From the NCBI GenBank assembly GCA_033065855.1, contig JAVXUO010002686.1, forward strand, positions 1 to 64,000: a DNA stretch of 64,000 bases, read 5' to 3'. Made by a program: the position numbers and the translations under genes. Positions within the stretch are counted from its first letter, which is position 1. Each line of letters begins with the position of its first letter. Shown piece after piece: positions 287 to 58,089 of the stretch. This DNA is from Escallonia rubra (taxonomy: Eukaryota; Streptophyta; Magnoliopsida; Escalloniales; Escalloniaceae). The notes beneath the pieces are model-generated. The model was not told where the DNA came from. It searched no databases and was given only the letters and a program-made list of their open reading frames with translations.

Positions 287-408
287 ATCCTAGCGTTGAA
301 CTATTTTTCCCTAGGACCTCCCCTATAGTATCGTCACCTTAGTAGAGTTTAACCACCAAGTTCGGGATATGATCGGTGTGGTTCATCTACGCCTAGGACA
401 CCAAAATA
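287..408 (-). rRNA. rrn5: plastid-type 5S rRNA, nuclear relic
   Basis: The minus strand reads as a chloroplast 5S rRNA of about 122 nt, including the conserved CCGAACTTGGTGGTTAAACT segment and the GGTGACGATACTATAGGGGAGG segment. It differs at scattered positions from the chloroplast consensus as I know it. It lies inside a nuclear plastid insertion, so it is very unlikely to be expressed as plastid rRNA; treat it as a non-functional copy. Confidence 0.75.
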
Positions 409-37707: not shown

Positions 37708-40700
37708 TCATTCCTTCTTCTTGCCCCGTTTTTCAGTTTCTTCGTCAAGTCCAGGATGCTTCCTCTTCTTATTCTTCTTGCCATTGGCTTTCAGGCCTTC
37801 ACTCTGCAGATCAACATCCTCAGCTACTGCATGCTGCTTCTTTTTCTTCTTTCTCAGTTTTATCTCAGCATCTTGACTTACAGGTTCTGCAAAGCCAAAC
37901 GCATCATTTTGCAAGCCTGTCTCCTCTGCATCAGCCTTCTTCTTTTTCTTATTTGTCTTTTGGTCTTTCTTCTCGTCATTGGCAACAGGTGCCTCCTTTC
38001 CTGCTACTCCAATCTGAACCTTAATTGGGGTCATTGGTTCTTTTTGTCCGATAACAGAATCTGCTGAAGGATTGTAAGTCTGAAGCACAAATAAGTCAAG
38101 TATTAAAAGAAGATATGAGAGTAACATTGATATGTTTCTTTTTCTTTTTAAGCTAAAACAATCTATAATTACAAGGAGCAAGATGGATATGATATCTATC
38201 CAACGTCAGACATAATACAGACCTTTGCAGGAGTTATCAGTGCTCCCGCTCCCTTTTTGCGGTCCTTGTTGTACAACTCCATCTTAGGTTTGCCTTTCAC
38301 TGACCCAGCAGAACGACCTAGTTCTCTCCCTTCCAGATTCATTAACCGCAACTCGAGCTACAAAATACACAGAAAAATACTTACTGCGAAAGAGAGGATA
38401 AACAATTACAAGAATAGACTTTCCACTTTGTAATGCTCAATACAGTACCTTGGCTCGATTTTCTAACCCCATAGAATTGTCTTGGTCATCTCCAAAAGCG
38501 TCACAACGGACTGCCAATGCAGTTTTGGCAGCAAGAGATCGCGAAATTTTCCCCTTGTGTTTTGCAGAAGCCTGACCTATTAAAGACGCATGGTAGATGA
38601 GCCCAAATTTAGGGGTTGCATGCTTTTGCTTCAGAGCTCTGAAGAGCGCTTTTTCTGCACCAAGAATCTGAGTTGTACTCCCAGGCTGTTTTGCCAGATT
38701 CATCAAGCTGCCGGCATGGGCGATGAGCCGAGCACCAACAAGTTCTCCGACAAGGGCAGTAAGGTTTGGAGCAACAGCATGCATCCTACTTTTCAGATAA
38801 TCATACAGTTCTGCTCTCAACTTTGCAAGAGAAATAACCTGATCGCACTGTTCCACAATAATGTTAAGATCGAGCTCGCAAACTTCAGTTCCCATGGAAG
38901 TCATGGCTGCTTCTTTGAGTTGTATTTCCAACTCCTCTGACATTATCTGGGAATTTGAAATGAGCATCTATAAGCACCAAACACACAAAGCAATCCTTCC
39001 AAAGTAGGAATAAGAAAATTACTTTCTCAAAACCAAGTCTTTGTTATTTTTTACCATGACAAGCAATCCTCCGAAAGTAGGAAGAAGAATAGAAGATATT
39101 CGCATTTCAAGAAATACTTTCTGATAATTATCTTCCCAAAACCAAGTCTTGCTACGTCAAAACAAAAAGAGAAACCCCGCAATTCATGCTGTCTTCTTAA
39201 TTCAAGCCAAAGGATTCTCAAAGATATTTTCATATTTCATTTAATAATGACTAATGTTGCTGTAAGGATAGCTTCCCTGAAAATGGGTCAGAAAATGTAT
39301 CCATTTCCCAAATTGAGATTTTCTAAAGCATAGCGGCAATAAATAATGAAGGAGGACTATTTGGGAACAGAGCAAAGTTAAGGAAATCAGGCGGTGACAT
39401 GCATCCAAAGCCTACTGATAGCTGATATGACAGGCACAATGGAACCTACCTCAGAGAAATCAAGCTTGGCAGCATTTGTACGATCTCTCGTCATTTTCAC
39501 GGTCTTGGCATAAAGAATGTTGTCTTGTAAAATCTTTGCAAGCTCTGGAAAATGCCAACCGTACCATTCTCGAAGCCTCATTGCACTAATGTTGAGCTCT
39601 TTGTCAAGATCATCCATATTGCCAATGGCCTGAATGAGCATAATATCCACCTGGAGTAACATATATCAAATAATAAGAGTCAGAAGCCCAAACGAGAATA
39701 AATGTGGCCAGAAAAAAGAAAAAGAAGTATGATATAACTAGAAAAGTAGTCCACCTTATCAGGACTGAATTTTAACTTGTGTCTGGACATGCTGTGAGAT
39801 AAACCCAAACTCATTGGAGCCAGATCTTGAGGTCCAAGACCAGCTATGAGCTCCATCAATTGATGTCTGACCCCTCTCATCAGTTCCATGACAGCATTGT
39901 TGTGAACGCATTCAATTTTCTGTGAAGCATATGATGATATACATGACAAAACTATTATAGCCAAGGAAAAGAAAGTAGTCAAGCCAACTTGCCAAAATGT
40001 CATACCAGTTTATCCTGGATTGCCTTTCCAAGTTTAGTATCAGCCACAGCTAATGTTTCACCCTCGCAGTGAGCATGCAGAAACTTGCGCAGACCTTTGC
40101 TAGGCTTGCTATCAATCAACAAAGTAGTGGCCGCCAACGCCTCAGTTATGTTCTCGAACTTGGAGAAAGCTTTTAGCGTAACAACCTAAGAGTTAATCTC
40201 GGGCCAACCAATGGTTAGGATAAGGATGTAAGGGGGATCCCAAATGAAATGAGACTAATGACAGGGTGATCAGCCTATAATTAAATAGCATTTTGTTGAG
40301 GATGGAAAATAAGCACTGACCTATATACAAGTAAACTGTAATCGTTGGTCATTTCGTGCCTAGAGATTGGGAAGCCTAAGACGGACATTTTGATATATGA
40401 CAGAAAAGAAGAGAAAGCAGGAGTAAGAGCAGGAGACTGATATAACTTTGCTTTAAATAAGAAATAAAAAACACGTAAAAGCGACACATGCCATCTTTCT
40501 CTTTTTTTTTTTTGGTCCAATGCCATGATACAACTATATCCTTCGTACTTATCAAAAGAAATCTATATTTTGCAATACTCTGCGGGTTGTCCATGATTCA
40601 AATAGCACAACTGATTTTCAAAAGATATGAAAGGACTAGAAGAAGCCCATCAAGAATATATGCACCCCTATCATCATTGACACTTCTCAGAAATGGATGC

Positions 40701-43700
40701 ACAACAGCTTCTCTCCAATTTTATGGCAAAAGAGGAAACCAAGAAGGAAAAGAGAATACTTTGTGTTAATAACTACCAGCATAAAAGTAGATCCACCAAA
40801 AATGACAAAGAGATGCATTTATGGGAACATGTAAAAGCTCTGACCATACACGGTGTGCGTGCATAGCACGGGTGCGTGCTAGTAAAGATATGTAGAAAGT
40901 TAAAGTGAGAACTAAGAACAAAAGAGTGCAAAGATACATAAAATAAGTAGAAGCGTGAGAAAATTGTGTTCTTTCAGATAAGATACACAAATTAATGAAT
41001 GGAAGAAGTCCATTAGGCAACGATTCCCCCTTATCATCATTGACATTCCTCAGAAATTGGTGGACAACCTCTTCCGTCCAGTTTTATGGGAAAAGAGGAA
41101 ACCAAAAAGAAAAAGAAGATAATTTGTATTAATAACTACCTGCATAAAAATTGAAACACCAAAAAGAAGATGTGTTTATTGGAACAAGTAAAAGCTTTGA
41201 CCGTATATGCTATGCGTGCATAGCACAGGCACGAAGCTAGTAAAGATATGTAGCAGATTGAAAACTATTCACCAAACAAGAAGTTCCACGTAAACATTCA
41301 TGTTGGGCCAACGAACTAATGACAAGGTCATCAGCCTATAATTAGATAGCATTTGCTCAGCGCAAAAAATAAGCATTGACATATTTACAAATAATCTGTA
41401 AACAATAAGCAATGCTCTTTTCATGCCAAGAGATTAGGCAGTCTAAGATGTACATTCTGATAAAAATAATACTATAGAAGATAAAGTAGAAGTGAGAACT
41501 GAGAACAAGAGAGTGAAAGTTACTTTGCTGCAAATACGATACATAAAATATGTAACAGCAGGGGGAAATTGCTTTGTTTAAAATAAGAAACACATATTAC
41601 TAAAAGGAAGAAGTCCATTAGGCACAGATGCCCCCGCATCATCATTGAAACTCCTCAGATTTGGGTGCACAACCTGTTCTGTCCAATTTTTAATGGGAAA
41701 AGAAGAAATTGAAAAGGAAAAGAGGATACTTTGTGTTGCTCACTAGAAAGAAAACATGCATCATCATGGATACAACGAAAACAACAGAGGTATATTTATG
41801 GGAAAGTGAAAAACATCATCATGCATGCATGAGTACTAAGCTAGTAAATACATGTAGCACAAACATGAAAACCATTCACCCAAAAAAAGTAGCGCACAAG
41901 AGTATCCATAGCAGTAGAGTACTTGACCTTTCTAGCAGCATCGGACGTAGAAAACTCCTTCCACAAGTCCTGCAACACAGGATCATCACTATTAGTCCAT
42001 TCAAGCACCTTTTCCCTACCAAGATTACTCATGTTTACCCCTTCAATTCATAAATCAATAGATTCAGCCAAATGGCTAGCAGTTGATTGAGAAACAAATT
42101 TCAGAGGGCCAAATTGGCAGTGTAATTTTACAATAACACCACAGGTTACTCTCTTTCCGCATATACTCCTTTCAAATTTCAATGTTCTTGTTCCCCTTCC
42201 TAGAATAGAATTTGAGAATTCAAACGTTGACTTTACTCCATATTTTTACCCTAACTTCACTCGCTTAACAATAGTTGTTCTGTTTATAAGAATTAACTTT
42301 GATTTGATATTTAGGTCTTCGAATTATATCCTAGTACTCCACTTGACAATCAAAGAGGACAAAAATTACAAAACAAAGACTAGCTTTGTAAAGACAGAAT
42401 GCTAACGTAGAGAATACCTCAATTTTGGAGAGCTTGCCTTCATCTAGTAGTAGTTAAAAAAGGGCAAAGCCCGCCAGAGTCTCGAACAATACCAACATTA
42501 TACAGTATTTTTACCAAAAAGAACACCTAAGATGTTCACCTACGTAATTAACCATGGACTAACGTGAGAGTAAATAACAAGGTATTAAGGTTTTAGTAGA
42601 AGGATTTCAGTATATTAGTAGAAGGTTTTAGTAGAAGTTCATGAATGTGCCATCAGATCTCTTCCCTACAACCATGTATGTTCTGTGACATGTTGATTGT
42701 TAATGCACTGGTCAAATACATGAACAATCTAACACACGCAAGCCAATGTCATAGTAGAATATGAGATGGTGCACCGTCGAGTCTTGCCCTCCTTGTATTA
42801 TGTACTAATTAATCTGTGTTAGTGGGACAACCAAGTACATTAAATAAGCAATAGCCTAACAGGAAGCTGGCAAGTAGCTAAGGATCATACTAATGATAAG
42901 CTAATTGGGTTAGGACTAATACAACTATTATACTAATCAGTTTGATCTTTGCATGTAACAAAAAGCTGGCTATAAAAAATGTTTTGCTAAAGAATCATAC
43001 ACATTCCTTATTCAGCTAGCTTCAGCTTGCTTTGGAATATTTAAGTTACGCGTATGAAAATAAACTAATTTACTCCACACTCTTTTTATATAAATAATTA
43101 CTATCGTTTTTCTTGTAGGAGAAATGCTATTTCACGCTTTAGTTCGTAAATCTCACATTCATCTGCGACAAAAAAATTCCGTCACTAGTACATAGTGATA
43201 ACGAATAAGTTTGTTTCAACGCTGTTCCGCTTATAACGATGGTTGATGCTTGAATACCAGATACAACAAACATTCATCTCCTAAATATGTAGAGTAGACA
43301 ATACGTGAGTATTTCTTTGCTTTGCAGCTTTGCAATTATAAAAAGCCATAGAAACTACGCTAAATTACCATGAATTAAAACTGGTGACAGACAAGTAAAA
43401 TCCAGTTTCACTTCTTCACTTTATGGGGTGGTTGTAGCGAGTTGGAGCCAAACCAAAGCTCCAGAGTTCAGAGTATATATGTAACAGAGGGAGGGTAGAC
43501 AAAAGTAGCACACACACCATATTGCTCATACTGGTCCAGTCCAGTTCCATCCATTCATTTGATGCTGATGCCATGACTCGCCAACATCTGCTACTCCTCT
43601 CTCTCATCTTTTTTTCTGATCTTTATCCACCACCAAGATCTGCAACTTCAATTAACCGATTCGTTCCTTAAGCCTACAAGTACCAGCTGTACTTACACAC

Positions 43701-45180
43701 TTGCTACAATCCCACACCATTTCTTTCTGGGTTTGCTATCAAATCTTGTGGAATTTTATCACCAAGCTTTAGTCTCTGTGTGTTTCATGTGTAAGTGTGT
43801 ATACATTGAAGCTTTCATAACTCTTTATGTTCTCTTCACATGTGATCAAAGCACTAAAAGAAAGAACTTGGTATCATACTTTCTTAGTCTCCCTGCAAAT
43901 TCTGATGGGTTCTATATATATCATGACGTTATGTGGGTTATCATCCTCGTGTGTTTCTATGGTATACATATGGATAATATTTCCAATATAGATTAGATGT
44001 CTGTTGATGTTCTTATTCTTGGAATGTGTTCACGGCAGGATAGTTTCCTTTGTGTAGGCATCTCATGAATGAAGCTAGAATCGTATGAATTGGAGTCTCT
44101 TTCGATGACCACTGTTTTTTGAGACCTTGCTGTTGGAGTGACTGTGTTGGTGAAACCTATGGAAGTTGAAGAAAGGAAGTCTCCTTCAGGATATGGCAAA
44201 CTCCCTTGGGTATTCAAAGGCAGACAAATGATTCTTTACTGTCGGACTAACTTACGGTCTTTCCGAGATGACCTGTCTAACTGATTAACTCTTCTAAACA
44301 CAGTCATCTAGTTTTGTATAACGATTTGTTTGCTTTGTCAGGGCCCTATACCAGCTTCATCTCATGAAAGCAGAAACTGCCCGGGTGTTCATCCCCAAAA
44401 AGTTCAGATTGCTTGAAGCTTTTGGGTAGTTATAAACTGTAGTTACCATTTTACGTAATAAGGGGTGTTGGTGATTAGATATTTAGGATACTCATCTTCA
44501 ATTAACTAATAGGAGTTTGTACTTGTACTCTGTAAATACACCCTTAGTGGCGTCATTCTTGCCAGTTATGAACAGTCCAGCTGGAACCTTTGATGAGGTT
44601 GTCCGTTCTACTTTCTTATGTTGAACCACTCAATCAAATCAGTTATTTAAGACAATTGAATAGACTAGTATCATTTGGAACATGCTTGGTACAGAGAAAC
44701 GAGATAAATGTTTTGAGTTTGTTTATCTATCTACAAACATTAGGTGGCTTGATTTTCTTTCCGTTGTATTGTTCAGCTAGTGGTGATTGCAGGAACTGTA
44801 TGGAACTGAACCCTCCTACATCTTGTCCTACATCTTGTGCCTAAGTTTCCACCTGTATCATCTTGTTGTTTACTAAAGTAGTGCAACGTGATAGTGTTTA
44901 TGGGTTATGCTCCTCTCTTTTTTTTCGATTTTTCTGCTACAAAAGATAACCGGAATAACACGTCATTTAGTCAGACAGAACGGATCAGGATCCCGATCCT
45001 GATCCAGACAGAACTACTTGACAATCAAAGAGGACAACAATCACAATCACAAAACAAAGACTAGTTTTTTGTAGGAAAAAAAAATGGTAACATAGAGAAT
45101 ACCTCAACTTTGGAGAGCTTGCCTTCATCTAGTACTTTAAAAAGGGCAAACCCCGCCGGAGTCTCGAACAACACCAACAT
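37708..45180 (-). CDS. NOP58: NOP58 box C/D snoRNP core protein, 8 exons, exon 1 taken from the distal duplicate
   Basis: CDS complement(join(37708..38079, 38223..38357, 38449..38946, 39450..39650, 39755..39919, 40006..40185, 41928..41969, 45103..45180)), 556 aa (Arabidopsis about 533). Exon 1 encodes [20 protein letters not shown], the NOP5 N-terminal domain start; exons 2-4 finish it, exons 5-6 hold the Nop coiled-coil and RNP-binding domain, and exon 8 the lysine-rich KKX tail typical of NOP58/NOP5. With NOP56, fibrillarin and the 15.5K protein it builds box C/D snoRNPs that guide rRNA 2'-O-methylation in the nucleolus. Exons 2-8 are certain. Exon 1 is inferred: a nearer copy (42418-42498) has a stop codon, whereas the copy at 45103-45180 is intact and beside telo-box/site II motifs, giving a 3.1-kb intron 1. 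Confidence 0.85.
40255..41870. repeat. diverged direct repeats inside NOP58 intron 2
   Basis: A segment beginning ATCATCATTGA and containing TTTTATGG(C/G)AAAAGAGGAAACC and GCTAGTAAAGATATGTAG occurs at about 40670-40910, 41032-41260 and 41638-41860. A second segment (ATCAGCCTATAATTA to AAGATGTACATT-like) occurs at about 40268-40390 and 41330-41455. The pattern suggests tandem duplication of about 1.06 kb, followed by divergence. No coding content. Confidence 0.65.
42418..42498 (-). pseudogene. dead duplicate of NOP58 exon 1
   Basis: ATG at 42498 opens [14 protein letters not shown] and then hits TAA; the frame after it ([12 protein letters not shown]) and the donor GAG|GTATTC still match the intact exon at 45103-45180. 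The change is a net 3-bp gain that turns the lysine after FALF into a stop. A second change makes P to L. The exon sits closer to exon 2 than the good copy, so it could still be spliced into dead transcripts. Confidence 0.85.
44159..44843 (+). pseudogene. dead duplicate of NXD1 exons 1-4
   Basis: Exon 1 relic 44159-44223 ([21 protein letters not shown]), exon 2 relic 44342-44425, exon 3 relic 44536-44597 and exon 4 relic from 44777. Compared with the intact gene at 49265: the intron 1 donor GCAAGT is now ACAAAT; the exon 3 acceptor TGTAG is TGTAA; exon 3 has a 2-bp deletion; exon 4 has an insertion making an in-frame TGA-type break and has lost its donor. Exons 5-10 are absent because the duplication ended inside intron 4. 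It lies antisense inside the inferred NOP58 intron 1. Confidence 0.88.
44972..45014. repeat. palindrome between 10-bp direct repeats at the duplication junction
   Basis: CAGACAGAAC occurs at 44972-44981 and 45005-45014. Between them is a near-perfect palindrome with 11-bp arms (GGATCAGGATC at 44982-44992, its complement at 44995-45005). It stands exactly between the inner and outer units, which suggests a repair or insertion footprint at the junction. Confidence 0.75.
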
Positions 45181-45261
45181 TGTACGTTATGCTTTGCCAA
45201 AAGGAAGATGTTCACCAACGTGATTAACCAAGGATTATCGTGAGACTAAGCAACAGAGCAC

Positions 45262-45508
45262 TAGGGTTTTTACCCTCTCTTGCGCAGCGAGGAAATACAG
45301 AAGGGTTTTGGGAGGAATGAAAGATATTCAGGGTAAGAGGGGGTTTGTATATGGGGGGCTACAGAACGCGTGGGCTGCGTGTATTTTAGTAGAAGGGTTT
45401 TAGGTTTTTATTGGGCCGCGGGTCTTAACCGGCGTGCATTTTAGTAAACCCTAACCCTAATATACCCATCTACACAGCCTAAGAAGGGGCATGTTGCCAA
45501 GTGGCCCA
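45262..45508 (-). promoter_or_regulatory. candidate NOP58 promoter: telo-box and site II motifs
   Basis: Telo-box words: AAACCCTAACCCTAA at 45446-45460 and its complement TAGGGTTT at 45262-45269. Site II words (TGGGCC/T): 45371-45376, 45412-45417 and, as GGCCCA, 45503-45508. This combination is an established signature of plant ribosomal-protein and ribosome-biogenesis promoters. It lies 80-330 bp upstream of the intact NOP58 exon 1 and is absent upstream of the dead inner copy. Confidence 0.65.
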
Positions 45509-45529
45509 TGACCCAACCTTAAAAGGCCG

Positions 45530-47885
45530 GGCTTAAATTGGCCCGTGTTATCAGATGGGATCCTAAACCAACGTGCATGGAATCGAAAAAGTAAAGAAGA
45601 GCCAGAAAATTACATGGTTCTAATCGGCCCCAAAGATTTGCAATTAAAGGAATTGATCCGAAGAGTCGGAACCTGTAACCAGTCAATAGCAGAAAGCATC
45701 AGATCCGAGAGACGGTTGATGGGGTTGGAAGATGGTGTTTGTGGCGGTGGCGTCATATAGAGGAAGGCGAGTGCAGCGGCGGCGGAGAGCAAAGGCGGCG
45801 TGGCGATTGCAATATGGGAGCTCGAGGGTGGGAAAAAAGAGAGGTAGGTGAGAGGGTATCCTCCTCTCTCCCCCTCTTGCAGCTGTAGCTTTGGGTTGTG
45901 GCGTAACAGTCGATGTGGAGGTGGCACAAGGAATGCAATTCGAGTCAGATGCCAAGTGTGCTGATGTGGGACACTGCAAAAGATGGAGTAAGGCAGAGAT
46001 CAAGGATTTTCCAGACAAAGCCTGAGGGTGGCAGTGCTACGAGGGCAATGGCGCGAGTAAATACACGACAACAGTTTACGATCCAATGCTTACATCCAGA
46101 GTCTAGGTCATGTATGTTTATCTCTTTAGAATTCTAAGTGAATGTGAGAATGAGTTCTAAAAATATTCAACTTTCTGAATGAATTCTCAAGACCCCCATT
46201 TATAAAGGTTGGGATGATGTTATCAACTGACACGTGGCGCTCCCCGGGAGTGACACGTCACCGAGGGGTCCACAGGTGCCGGTGCTCCACGGACTGTCAT
46301 TCTCAAGACCTGGCAGCGGTGGGGAAGGCCCGGCGCCCAATTGCTAGGCGAACTAGGCACGATGCCCTCCAAAAACCTGCTCTCATCTCAGAGTGACTAG
46401 GGGGGTCATAATACCTAAGGATGTCGATGAAAGCCTCTAGTTCAGGAACACGTAGGCTAGTCACGCAAACACCATGGCAAAAATAATGTTCCGGAAGAGT
46501 CGCATATCCCACTGGTGAGTCATTGTGCTTGAGTACTCAAAGTGCGTCAATGTAGTATCCCAGAGGAGTCACCTACCCCACGGGCCGAGCTATCATCTTG
46601 AAAGAGTCGTCTATCTGGCGAAAAATGAGTTGAAGCACCGTGGTGGAGATAGTGTTTCGGAAGAGTCTTTTATCCTTGTGGGTGAATCCTTGTACTGGAG
46701 CACTCGGAGCACGCCAAGGTAATGTCGCGAAGGAGTTGCCTACCCGACGGGCCGAGGTAGCATCCTGGAAAAGCTGTCTACCTGGCGGAAGATGAGTCTT
46801 CATGCGGGAGCACTTGAGTTCCCTGACAGAGATAGTGTTACGGGGGAGTCCCCTATCCCTGTGGGTGAGTCCTTGTGTCGGAGCACTCGGAAAAATACAC
46901 CAAGGTAGCATCTCGAAGGAGTCGCCTACCCGACAAGCCGAGGTAGCATCCCAGAGAAGCCGTCTACCTGGCGGAAGGGGAGTCTTCATGCCGGAGCACT
47001 TAAAGCTCCCTAGCAGAGATAGTGTCCCGGAAGAGTCGCATATCCACGTGGGATGCTGCACACTCTGAGGAGTGGGTCGAAGCATGTGTCCACGACCTAG
47101 GCAAGATACGCATGATATGGTGAAAGGATGGACCAGTGCGGGGGGCGTGATAGTGTTACAGAGAGCCGAGGGGCGCGACTGTATCAGCGGCGCGACGAAG
47201 TGTGTGCGGAGATGGGCGTCGTGCCGGGGGCATGTGATGTGGAGTCGGCTCGGGCAACGGGGGTCGCGAAGTCGACGCGTAGGCGTGGACGACGGGCGTC
47301 ACAGAGACGTGTTGAGCCGGGGGCAGGTGATGCAGAGACAGCGCGTGGGCGACGGGGGTCACGGGATCAGTACGCGGGCGCGACGATGGGGGTCGCCGAG
47401 TTGGCATGTGGGGGCGGGCGACGGTAAGGCGCGCCGATTGGCGAATGTTTGGCCTCTGTGAGTCGCACCAAAATAAAATTTTAGCCCCAAAATCGTAAAA
47501 AAAAAAAGGCGCAAAACGCATGTAACTTGGGCATGCGCATTTTGACTTGTTGAAGGCGTTGACAAATTGACCGTTGACTGTATCGACATGTTGTGCAAAA
47601 TGGGACCCGGTGTGGGTCCATAGATGCAACCAAGATAAGTTGGGAACAGAGAGAGAAGCCGGAAACAAAACGCCTAAATTTTGGTTTGTGAGAATGACAT
47701 TCAACATTGAAAAAAGTACAGAAGACCATTAACAAGCATCCGTGGCCAATCTAAAGGAGAAAGTGAAAAAGGGTACGGAAGAAGAGGAAAGCTTCCCACT
47801 TTCAAGTCTTAACATACAAATAGACAATCATGGCGTGGGTTGATTAGAAAGGTGGTGGTTTGGTGCGCTTCTGTAACTTTTCTGC
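45530..47885. other. insert-like stretch present only in the outer unit
   Basis: GC-richer than its surroundings. Holds tandem repeats (46495-47035), CACGTG-containing DNA near 46231 and a GC-rich part (47100-47460). A TATA-like TTTATAAAGG at 46199-46208 may belong to a mobile element or LTR, but I could not find matching ends. Open frames across it (for example 170 codons on the minus strand) follow the repeats and were not called as genes. Confidence 0.5.
46495..47035. repeat. about 180-bp tandem repeats, three units
   Basis: Units start near 46497, 46665 and 46848, each with GGGTGAGTCCTTGTG-like, GGAGCACTCGG-like, CCTACCCGACGGGCCGAGGT-like and GTCTACCTGGCGGAAG-like words in the same order. 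Period is about 168-183 bp and copies are clearly diverged. This resembles internal repeats of a transposon or a small satellite; I do not recognise the family. Confidence 0.75.
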
Positions 47886-49264
47886 CCGGAAGAAGTTCAT
47901 GAATGTGCCGTGCCGTGCCGCAAGAACTCTCCCCCAGAACCATGTTTGTTCTGTGACAGTTCGACCGGTTCATGCACTGGCCAAATTCACGAACAACCCA
48001 TCACGTGCAAAGCCAGTTTCCATAGTAGAATAACGAGTTGGTGCACCCTCGAGTGTTGCCCTCCTTGCACTCTGTACTAATTAATCCGTGTTAGTGGGAC
48101 AGCCAAGTACAAAGCAGCTAAGGATCATTTTAATGATAAGTTAATTGGGTCAGGACAAATACAACTACTTTACTGATCAGTTTGGTCTTTGCACCCTAAC
48201 AAAAGCCGGCAATAAATAACTTTTTGTTAAACGTTGCATCATGTCCTAATCCATCAAAAAATGAACTAATTTACGCTATACTTTTTCTATACAAATAACA
48301 CAACCATCATTATATATTACGAAAATGTTAATTTCACATTTATTTGTCATTATTACTTTTCGTTACTGGTACACAGTGACAAGGGATACATAAGCTTCAA
48401 TACTTTAGCCAATATTCGTCTCCTAAATATGTAGAGTAGACACTATGCTGCCTGTACTAATTCTTTGCTTTGCAATCAGAAACAGTAAATAAAACTGTCC
48501 CTGAATTAAACTAGTCTCACAAAAGCAAAATACAGTTTAACTTCTTCACTCGATGGGATGGTTGTAGTGAGTTGGCGCCAAACCAAAGCTCCGGAAATAG
48601 TATATATATATATAGCAGAGGGAGGATAGACACAAGTAGCAAAACACACCATACTGCTCATACTGGTCCAGTCCGGTTCTATCCATTCATTTTGATGCTG
48701 ATGTCATGACTCTCACCAGCATTTCCTACTCCTCTCTCTCGTCATTTTTCTGATTTTTTTATCCACTCCCAAGATCTGCAAACTTATGTAACCGGTTCTC
48801 CTCAAGCCTACGAGTACAACTACTTACACAAATTGCTAAAATCCCACTCCATTTCTTTCTGGGTTTGCTATCAAATCTTGTGGAACTTATCGCCAAGCTT
48901 CAGTCGTCTCTGTAAGTTTCGTGTATTAGTGTAACTTTTAATGTTCTCTTCACATGTGATTGCAGCACTAAAAGATTGAACTTGGTATTGAACTTTATTA
49001 GTCTCCCTGCAAATTCTGATGGGTTTTGTTTATCATGATGGTATGCGGGTTTTAATCCTTATGCGTTTCTATGGTATAGATAATGTTTCCAATTTAGATT
49101 AGGTGTCTGTTGATGTTCCTATCCTGGGAATGTGTTCACGGCAGCGCTGTTTCCTTTGCGTAGGCATCTCATGAATGGAGCTAGAATCATATAAATTGGA
49201 GTCTCTTTCGATGACCATCGTTTTTTGACACCTTGCTGTTGGAGTGACCTTTGTCGGGAAACCT

Positions 49265-52200
49265 ATGGAAGTTGAAGAAAGGAAAACTCCTTCAGGATAT
49301 GACAAACTCCCTTGGGTATTCAAAGGCAGGCAAGTGATTCTTTACTGTGGGACTAACTTATGGTCTTTCCCAGATGACTTGTCTTACTACTTAAATCTTC
49401 TAAACATAGTGCTGTTTTGTATGACAATCTGTGTGCTTTGTCAGTGCCCTATACCAGCTTCATCTCGTGAAAGCAGAAACTGCTCGGGTTTTCATCCCCA
49501 AAGAGTTCAGATTGGTTGAAGCTTTTGGGTAGTTATATTGCTAAAGACTGTAGCTACCATTTACACAATAAGGGGTGTCGGTGATTAGATATTTAAGATA
49601 CGCATCTTCAATTAGTTAATGGGAGTTTGTACTTGTACTCTGTAGATACACCCTTGGTGGCTTCTTTCTTGCCAGTTATGATGACAGTCCAGCGGGAACC
49701 TTTGATGAGGTTGTCTGTTCTACTCTCTTATATTGAAGCGTTCAATCAGTTAGTTATTCAAGACATTATGTAATTGAATAGGATAGTATCTTTTGGAACG
49801 TGCTTGGAACAGAGAAACGAGATAATGTTTTGCGTTTGTTTATCTATCAACTAACATTAGGTGGCTTGGTTTGCTTTCTATTGTATTTTTCAGCTAGTGG
49901 TGATTGCAGGAACTGTATGGAACCCTCCTACATCTTGCGCGTAAGTCTTATCCTATATTATCTTGTTGTGTACTGAAGTAGTGCAACGTGATTGTGTATG
50001 AGTTATGCTCCTTGATTTTTCTGCTACAAAAGATACTGGAATAAAACGTCCACTAGTCAGGCACAACTCCGACATCTCAAAAAACTCTAAACTACGTTCT
50101 TGGAGTTGTGTGCGCATTGCATTTGATGCTAGGAGACGACATTTCTTTGTTCCTTCTTCATCGCTGTTCTTTCATGTTAGGCGTATCTTGACCAGATGAC
50201 ATGCCGCTATACACATCTAGCTGGTAGAGATGCCTGCCACTCGAGACTAGCTCGTCCAATTCTAAAATCGCCTTTATAAGTATTATGACTTTTGCTTTTG
50301 TTTTTTAATTGATTAAACGATCACTTTTTGAATAAATGCAGCTTTACCCTATAACTCTGTCTGCCCAACCTCCAAAGCAATATGCAAAATTGTAAAATAC
50401 TGAGGCTTCCGCGAAACAGCGATAGAACAGAGGCTGATATTAATGCAAATGCATTTTTCTCATTCTTACAAGGCTGCTCTGATTTAAAGAGTCATGAAAT
50501 TTTCATTTTTTATTAATTGTTTCCTTGAAATTAAGAAAAATAGAATATTTTGTCAACAGATGGGCTGCTAGGGTGCTTGTGAGTAGTGAGGAGGCCTGCA
50601 TCCATGGACGAAAGGTTGTAAGCCGCGGAGCCCTAGAGCACAATCCGCACTCACATTTCATCCTGTAGTATAGTCACAAAGAATCTGAATTACCTCTTTC
50701 CTTACTTCGACATCTGGAGAACATCAGATGGAGTATTTTGAAACACGTTTTCTTTGCCTTCGTTGTTGCAGGATGTAGGACTTCCAAGTCAAGTTGCCAG
50801 TTTTTCAAAGGTACTCGACCCTAGCACTTAACTGTTGATGTCATGATACTGCAGACTACAAGCTTTAAATCTTCTTACCAAGCATGGTGTAGAACAACGT
50901 TCACCATTTAAGTTGTCCTGGTTATATGATACATATTGTTCGGTGTCAAATGGTCAACGTTTATCAAAGAGAGGTGCTGTTCTACATATATTGGCTAGGA
51001 TCATCCTTATCCACAAAGGTAAGGACATGGATTCAGATGTACCATACCAAGGCTACCTAAAGTAGGTTTTGCAGATGTTTTTTCAGTGAGAAAGAAAAGT
51101 TAGCAAAGCCTCAATCGTCACACATTCCCGCTATTAAGTACATATTTATTGAACATAATTTGCTGAGGACAAATGATTTTTATTCAAGCAGAGAATAACA
51201 CCAACTCGAAGGCCACACAAAGGTAAAATAGACGGTTTTCTAAACATGATGGGCGTGGATACTACTTCCCACAGACCAAAAAATGGCATGGATATTCAAG
51301 TTTCTGAAGTCAATGGTTCTGCTGCAGCGGATATATTTAATATCAACCTTGCTACTGCTGGTGAGTTTCTTGAAAGACTAGATATGCTATTAATGGGAAA
51401 TGTATTGGTTCTAGGATTTCATTTTTGGATTGGTATATGTATAAAATGTATGTAGGTATGATTGTCTGTCGAGAAAAGACATCATGTCATGAATTACTCG
51501 ACAAAGTGAGATTTTTTTATGTGTTTCTTTTTGCTTGTTTTACGGTTTTGAAAAGTTTTAATTTCTTTTCCTGGTAAGCGAGGTTTCAAAATTTTCATCA
51601 CTAATTTGCAAAAAGTCTTAATATGACGAGAATAACAATTCCACAATGTAAACCTTGTTGTTACGCCTGCCAACATCCTCTTTCAAGTCCAGAAATAAGA
51701 GTGAACGATTACAGTATGTAGCATCCAAATATGACCTTTCGCCTTCTAATTGACCTTTTGACTATATTTTCTTATCATGCTCTTGGCAATGGCAGTACCT
51801 GAGCAGAATTCCAACCATGGGATGGGTCCAATTATCAAAATGTCACTTCCAAGCTTTAGGTAAATTTCATCGATTGCTTAGCGTATCATTTACTAACTCA
51901 AAATCTAATCAAAATAACCAGTTTTAGTGCCATAAAATTGCAGTGGGCGTACAGAGTATAATCAGCACCTTCTCAAGTACTCTTGCCAGATTACGTGCAG
52001 GTTTTCTTCTGTCTCTGAATCTACAGTTTTATGCTTCTAATCCAGTCACAAAATGCCTTCGAGGTTCTCTCCAACTCCAGCTTGATTGAAGATAGACCTA
52101 ATCTTTCTCTTTGGCACAATAGGTTTCGAGATCAAGTTTCACTTTTAAGTGTCAGCATCAATTATAAGTATGTTTTGATTGACATTCTTCATGTAGGGTA

Positions 52201-52449
52201 AGACCGGTGTCACCTGCTAAAGTGTTTGGGCCATCTGCGCTAGTGGAAGACAGTGAACAATCTTGTGAAAGCCGAAGTCTCAATTCCAAGGACTCCACAT
52301 CTGGAAGACTTGGAGACAATAAAAGAAACCTCAGCATATCTGTAATGTTATCCAAGCCAATATTAGCTCTGGAGTTCAATTGTCTAAAAATGCAGGTTCA
52401 TCCTCCTGTTGTAGTTTCTCAGAGAACTCATAACCCTTTGGAAGATTGA
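49265..52449 (+). CDS. NXD1: NEOXANTHIN-DEFICIENT 1, 10 exons
   Basis: CDS join(49265..49329, 49445..49528, 49646..49709, 49894..49940, 50560..50614, 50772..50810, 51192..51360, 51796..51859, 51944..52000, 52197..52449), 298 aa. The protein opens MEVEERKTPSGYDKLPWVFK, continues [20 protein letters not shown] and FGYTLGGFFLASYDDSPAGT, and has VWNPPTSCAWAARVLV and MGPIIKMSLPSFSGRTEYN, all features of plant NXD1. Mutants in Arabidopsis and tomato lack neoxanthin, but the protein's own reaction is not established; it is thought to act with ABA4 in plastids. Intron 1 uses a GC donor (GGCAG|GCAAGT); the rest are GT-AG. It stands head to head with NOP58 and is convergent with SCPL45. Exons 1-4 are the intact members of the duplicated pair. 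Confidence 0.92.

Positions 52450-53070: not shown

Positions 53071-58089
<5,019 letters not shown>

Follow-up and report, generated by a model that had tools for sequence, protein, structure and literature searches.

The first 64,000 bases of Escallonia rubra contig C1434 (164,606 bp, from a genome of 566 Mb in 3,222 contigs), referred to here as the window, hold two genes that stand head to head, a member of the NOP58 family on the minus strand and NXD1 on the plus strand. The divergent block between their bodies, reaching from NOP58 intron 1 to NXD1 intron 4, is present twice in direct order. Self-BLAST and alignment of the two copies place copy A, a decayed duplicate that is the inner one for NOP58, at 42341-44981, and copy B, which has intact exons and is outer for NOP58 and inner for NXD1, at 45016-50067. 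An earlier note, made from the letters of this DNA, had described the same block as present twice in direct order; that description stands, with the right end of A moved from 44971 to about 44981. The self-comparison that it had proposed confirms the copies as direct and collinear in all three of the matching pairs: 43269-44981 with 48411-50067 (81.5% with gaps), 42633-42991 with 47891-48231, and 42341-42594 with 45016-45270.

The duplication of the block is real and beyond chance. In the 2,207 bases compared, which fall into three aligned pieces, A and B differ at 329 (14.9%), to which 35 indel events must be added. These are too many differences for A and B to be alleles, and an allelic or recent duplication was rejected. 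A DNA search of all 566 Mb with 48411-50067 gave two places, A and B themselves (both of the two candidates were scored), and the block is therefore not a dispersed repeat. Between the copies lies a joint (44982-45015), a filler of about 34 bp that includes an 11-bp inverted repeat and has CAGACAGAA on either side; we infer that it was made by end joining with templated filler.

The palindromic filler at the joint is unusual, and the draft assembly consists of Nanopore/Canu contigs deduplicated with Purge Haplotigs, at contig level only (PMC10759652), so that one must ask whether haplotypes or homoeologous loci have been wrongly joined in tandem. The chance of this seems next to negligible: A and B differ at 14.9% of aligned bases, the genome search gave these two places only, the nanopore reads average 9.4 kb (PMC10759652), which is longer than the 7.7-kb array, and the order of A and B between the gene bodies, each present once, is what a tandem duplication would produce. 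Judged by its sequence, the duplication is an old and partial one, in tandem, of the region where two head-to-head genes start, and its inner copy has decayed.

Two genes around the duplicated block

An intact first exon of NOP58 lies in copy B (45103-45180, minus strand): its 26 codons are open and it ends in the donor GAG/GTATTC. Exons 2-8 (41969-41928, 40185-40006, 39919-39755, 39650-39450, 38946-38449, 38357-38223 and 38079-37708, all on the minus strand, with GT-AG borders in phase 0) lie to the left of both copies, at 41969-37708, as the earlier note had placed them. The model that joins exon 1 of B to exons 2-8 is open for 556 codons and has seven GT-AG introns. It matches the Pfam families NOP5NT (PF08156; 65 bits, cut-off 27) and Nop (PF01798; 266 bits, cut-off 25.4), and among solved structures it is closest to NOP58 (519.5 bits for the best NOP58 chain, 311.8 bits for the best NOP56 chain). 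Its predicted intron 1 (41970-45102, minus strand) is 3,133 nt long, spans copy A and is antisense to the NXD1 pseudo-exons there, which bears out at sequence level the reach of about 3.1 kb over an antisense NXD1 pseudogene that had been proposed for this gene. If exon 1 were absent, the earliest in-frame ATG would be M111; NOP5NT covers residues 2-65, and the domain would therefore be lost. A start from the first exon of copy A with a later restart was rejected, there being no in-frame ATG before model residue 111. The jump from 45103 to 41969 is the only intact NOP58 reading found in the sequence. We put at roughly 0.83 the probability that NOP58 starts in copy B and splices from 45103 to 41969 across copy A, together with the whole account of duplication and decay that is given below.

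The window gene is not the canonical, sole NOP58 of its genome. A complete, compact, canonical NOP58 of E. rubra is found on contig C934 (58,414 bp; RJ640_005091, P0160), and further copies are a gene on C734 and a partial one on C2494. A midpoint-rooted tree of 26 rows (the window gene, the C734 gene and 24 proteins picked to span taxa from the best 120 of 7,994), in which 12 of the 23 inner forks are open and of which only this one grouping is used, joins the window gene with its orthologue from E. herrerae (P0121) and with the C734 gene, apart from the canonical copies. On this evidence the window NOP58 is a diverged, backed-up paralogue, and to call it a core snoRNP gene, as had been done, was too strong. 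The C734 gene (C734:57858-66155) has an intron 2 of about 5.5 kb and an exon 5 with a 14-codon near-tandem insertion, and broken Nop-domain pieces lie at C734:47642-50314. In E. herrerae, P0121 is annotated as a full-length orthologue with an identical exon 1 (26/26 residues), and a second model, P0241, agrees in 25/26 residues; both begin with an open exon 1. The NXD1 of E. herrerae (P0002) and P0121 are on contigs of equal size (310,286), which suggests that NXD1 and the NOP58 paralogue are linked in that species too. By eye, NXD1 and NOP58 of Actinidia eriantha (P0005, P0176) are also on a contig of one size.

NXD1 has ten coding exons (49265-52449, plus strand) for 298 residues and one GC-AG intron. 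Coding exons 1-4 (49265-49940) are intact in copy B, with the GC-AG intron as intron 1; exons 5-10 (50560-52449), which homology to relatives supports, lie to the right of both copies, again as previously described. Its relatives carry the name NEOXANTHIN-DEFICIENT 1 and are up to 94% identical across the whole length, and an NXD1 protein model of E. rubra, RJ640_011781, carries residues specific to the window. The Pfam family ADC (PF06314) scores 19.9 bits on NXD1 against a cut-off of 29.8; many of the listed relatives are likewise without a Pfam domain, and ADC is listed for part of them. NXD1 needs no jump, as the earlier note had said; its further statement that NXD1 was rewired along with NOP58 does not hold, NXD1 itself being unchanged.

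Some other features of these genes and their surroundings may be recorded here. In NOP58 intron 2, the stretch 40254-41745 contains several direct repeats that are 72-79% identical to one another and lie about 360-1,060 bp apart. The possibility that NOP58 is a snoRNA host gene was rejected, because the sole Rfam match in the window at gathering scores is 5S rRNA-like and lies at 288-405 (minus strand; 42.1 bits, gathering 38). Partial NXD1-like stretches that cover only about residues 188-298 occur at C1792:37735-38035 and C2973:111758-112055. Downstream of NXD1 there are open frames at 54199-55955 (minus strand), which we take to resemble a serine carboxypeptidase-like gene, and at 56445-56493 there is a 49-bp palindrome-like stretch that is 88% self-complementary, with a perfect 32-bp core (56457-56488).

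Decay of copy A and probable constraint on copy B

In copy A, the counterpart of NOP58 exon 1 (42418-42498, minus strand) is one codon longer through a 3-nt gain, has an in-frame TAA at codon 15 and amino-acid changes at codons 8 and 25 (numbered as in B), and keeps the donor GAG/GTATTC. The counterparts of NXD1 exons 1-4 (44159-44840, plus strand) have frameshifts, a stop and two lost donors: the donor of exon 1 has gone from GC to AC and that of exon 4 from GT to CT, exon 3 has lost two bases, and exon 4 is 17 nt longer, with a TGA in frame. As read from these lesions, copy A is dead for both NOP58 and NXD1, in agreement with what had been claimed for the inner copy.

The divergence of A from B is unevenly spread. 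As Kimura two-parameter (K2P) distances it is 0.065 in the NXD1 coding exons (16/258 sites) and 0.081 in NOP58 exon 1 (6/78), against 0.145 in the NXD1 introns (69/528) and 0.187 in all noncoding sequence (307/1,871); the most diverged part is the sequence upstream of NXD1 (0.302). Coding divergence is thus about half of noncoding divergence, a pattern that fits a freely drifting A and a B constrained in both genes. When single changes in NOP58 exon 1 were polarised by eye on an alignment with the C934 and C734 paralogues, one change was B's own, and it is synonymous; one site is ambiguous, and the stop and the amino-acid changes belong to A. Free-drift simulation gave an expectation of 3.9 amino-acid changes for exon 1 of B, where none is seen (probability of none, 0.014). 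For the 1,593 bp of NOP58 exons 2-8, the same kind of simulation gave 9.4 frameshifts and 3.8 stops as the expectation since the duplication; neither a frameshift nor a stop is seen. A further point in favour of a maintained gene is the ratio of nonsynonymous to synonymous divergence (dN/dS) over exons 1-7, which for the window gene is 0.187 against C734, leaving the 14-codon insertion aside, and 0.134 against C934.

The noncoding K2P between A and B (0.187) is smaller than the synonymous divergence (dS) of the window gene from the C734 gene (0.52), which in turn is smaller than that from the C934 gene (0.79). In relative terms, and as estimated from these distances, the split of A and B is younger than the splits of the window gene from its two paralogues.

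The divergent promoter

Both strands were scanned for the telo-box (AAACCCTA) and for site II (TGGGCY). A predicted NOP58 promoter lies in copy B at 45262-45510. Measured upstream from the ATG of B, its telo-boxes stand at 82 and 266 bp and its site II elements at 191, 232 and 323 bp. Plant ribosomal protein genes are reported to have telo-boxes at 0-280 bp and site II elements at 80-400 bp from the start codon, and rRNA-processing genes show similar associations (PMC3022908). That spacing (two or more site II elements at 80-400 bp upstream and a telo-box no farther than 280 bp) is found at the ATG of B. Over the window it occurs at one cluster, amounting to 556 of 127,200 choices of position and strand, and the ATG of B falls inside it. 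The canonical gene on C934 has one telo-box and four site II elements (two of them overlapping) within 400 bp before its ATG. Copy A, scanned on both strands, has no telo-box and no site II element. On the A side of the stretch that is missing there are three retained matches of 12-16 nt to B 45381-45396, as would be expected had the promoter been lost from A and not gained in B. The comparison suggests that copy A lost the NOP58 promoter region by deletion.

Copy B has changed in another way. A DNA search of its own genome identified a high-copy dispersed repeat of about 1.7 kb in the divergent promoter of B (45907-47648, with edges taken from five copies), for which there are at least 114 matches (the best 40 of 6,305 first-look candidates having been scored). 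The start codons of NOP58 and NXD1 in B are 4,084 bp apart, about 1.7 kb of which is this repeat, so that the former divergent promoter is split there. A compact bidirectional promoter occupies a head-to-head interval of under about 1 kb, and the interval in B is too long to be one.

One might suppose that copy A is not inert, that both first exons are transcribed and that A has a regulatory or antisense role. A has kept the NOP58 donor and alignable sequence upstream of NXD1, and exact antisense matches to NXD1, up to 37 nt long, occur in the predicted NOP58 intron 1. The absence of telo-boxes and site II elements from A speaks against this supposition, as do the divergence of its exons, which fits free drift, the sequence upstream of NXD1, which is the most diverged part of all, and the small share of 21-mers of NXD1 coding exons 1-4 that are perfectly matched in A (18 of 180); we consider it very unlikely. 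A more specific proposal, that NOP58 intron 1 is a built-in antisense of NXD1 exons 1-4 that would lower NXD1 via small RNAs, deserves still less credence. Were it correct, every primary transcript of NOP58 would contain RNA complementary to NXD1, and a nucleolar gene would be tied to carotenoid synthesis.

Proposed history and known systems

Several observations weigh against a NOP58 that starts in copy B and jumps across copy A. The exon 4 donor (AAG/GTGGAC) looks weak, and exon 1, at 78 bp, offers only a weak signal of its own. The E. herrerae model P0241 is without exon 2. The telo-box/site II cluster is not general in the family, since the 860 bp before exon 1 of the C734 paralogue contain no telo-box and one site II element. 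Furthermore, 36 of 300 random 64-kb sequences with the composition of the window hold a telo-box and two site II elements within 200 bp somewhere; the cluster was therefore rejected as proof by itself, and it is its position, not its presence, that carries weight. The low dN/dS of the window gene covers a branch that mostly predates the duplication of A and B. Finally, the E. rubra gene annotation drew on transcript and protein evidence (PMC10759652), and a NOP58 model of E. rubra that would belong to this locus is found neither among the best 120 of 7,994 proteins (candidates of 306-973 amino acids) nor among 120 of the 194 at E of 1e-80 or below (about 128-406 amino acids), a search that a short fragment could escape. 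Among the proteins listed for NOP58 and for NXD1, none was seen that derives from an Escallonia transcript. The annotators seem to have left the NOP58 locus unmodelled.

Some of these points would also suit a NOP58 paralogue that is dying, its transcripts starting in or near copy A or nowhere and giving a truncated protein or none, while the C934 gene does the work. The existence of that complete canonical gene, the divergence of the window gene, the missing E. rubra model and the weak-looking exon 4 donor all lean this way. Against them must be set a reading frame and splice borders that have stayed intact over the 1,593 bp of exons 2-8, in the face of the many lesions expected under drift, a first exon that is kept in B, a dN/dS of 0.19 and the full-length annotation of the E. 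herrerae orthologue. On balance a dying gene is unlikely, and we continue with a NOP58 that starts in copy B.

The history that we propose begins with a block that contained exon 1 of the NOP58 paralogue together with coding exons 1-4 of NXD1, and that would have been duplicated by end joining. Both genes would then have had two possible starts, the near one being B for NXD1 and A for NOP58. B was kept for both, probably because NXD1 starting from A must skip four full exons and NOP58 starting from B only one first exon; lacking a 3' splice site, a first exon is easily passed over inside an intron. With B able to serve both genes, A would have been free to decay, a deletion removing its NOP58 promoter and point changes and indels ruining its exons. 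NOP58 would have ended up with a distal first exon and promoter that are obligate, and NXD1 would be as it was before.

If this history is right, the locus is a clean natural case of a divergent promoter copied in tandem, by which each gene gets a near and a far start, and the gene that needs to pass only a lone first exon, NOP58, appears to have adopted the far start. The locus would illustrate a possible one-step origin of long first introns and displaced promoters, and the way in which genes with a displaced first exon can escape annotation. Ribosome biogenesis is probably little affected, because the NOP58 gene concerned is a backed-up paralogue.

Like other plant NOP58 (nucleolar protein 5) genes, that of the window has NOP5NT and Nop domains and an eight-exon layout, the same as that of the C934 gene. 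It differs in belonging to a diverged clade with the C734 gene and in a first exon that is displaced by 3.1 kb, where the C934 gene has an intron 1 of 131 nt. Its predicted promoter resembles the reported telo-box/site II promoters (PMC3022908) in its spacing upstream of a gene of the rRNA-processing type, and differs from them in that only one of two tandem copies carries the cluster.

A displaced first exon and promoter had been called unusual in the earlier note, but there is a published precedent in PEP1 of Arabis alpina. As reported there, a partial tandem duplication at PEP1 comprises exon 1 and parts of the promoter and of intron 1, with the exon copies 6.3 kb apart, and splicing joins the distal copy to the gene's one exon 2, as established by cDNA and by 5' rapid amplification of cDNA ends (PMC3527215). 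PEP1 thus shows splicing of this kind, from a distal duplicated first exon into a lone exon 2, to be feasible. In both systems exon 1, along with some sequence of the promoter and of intron 1, came to stand twice in the same orientation ahead of a single gene body. The differences are that both exon 1 copies of PEP1 are used, whereas exon 1 of copy A has an in-frame stop, and that PEP1 is one gene, whereas the block in E. rubra spans two head-to-head genes, is dead for both in its inner copy, and use of the distal exon is inferred.

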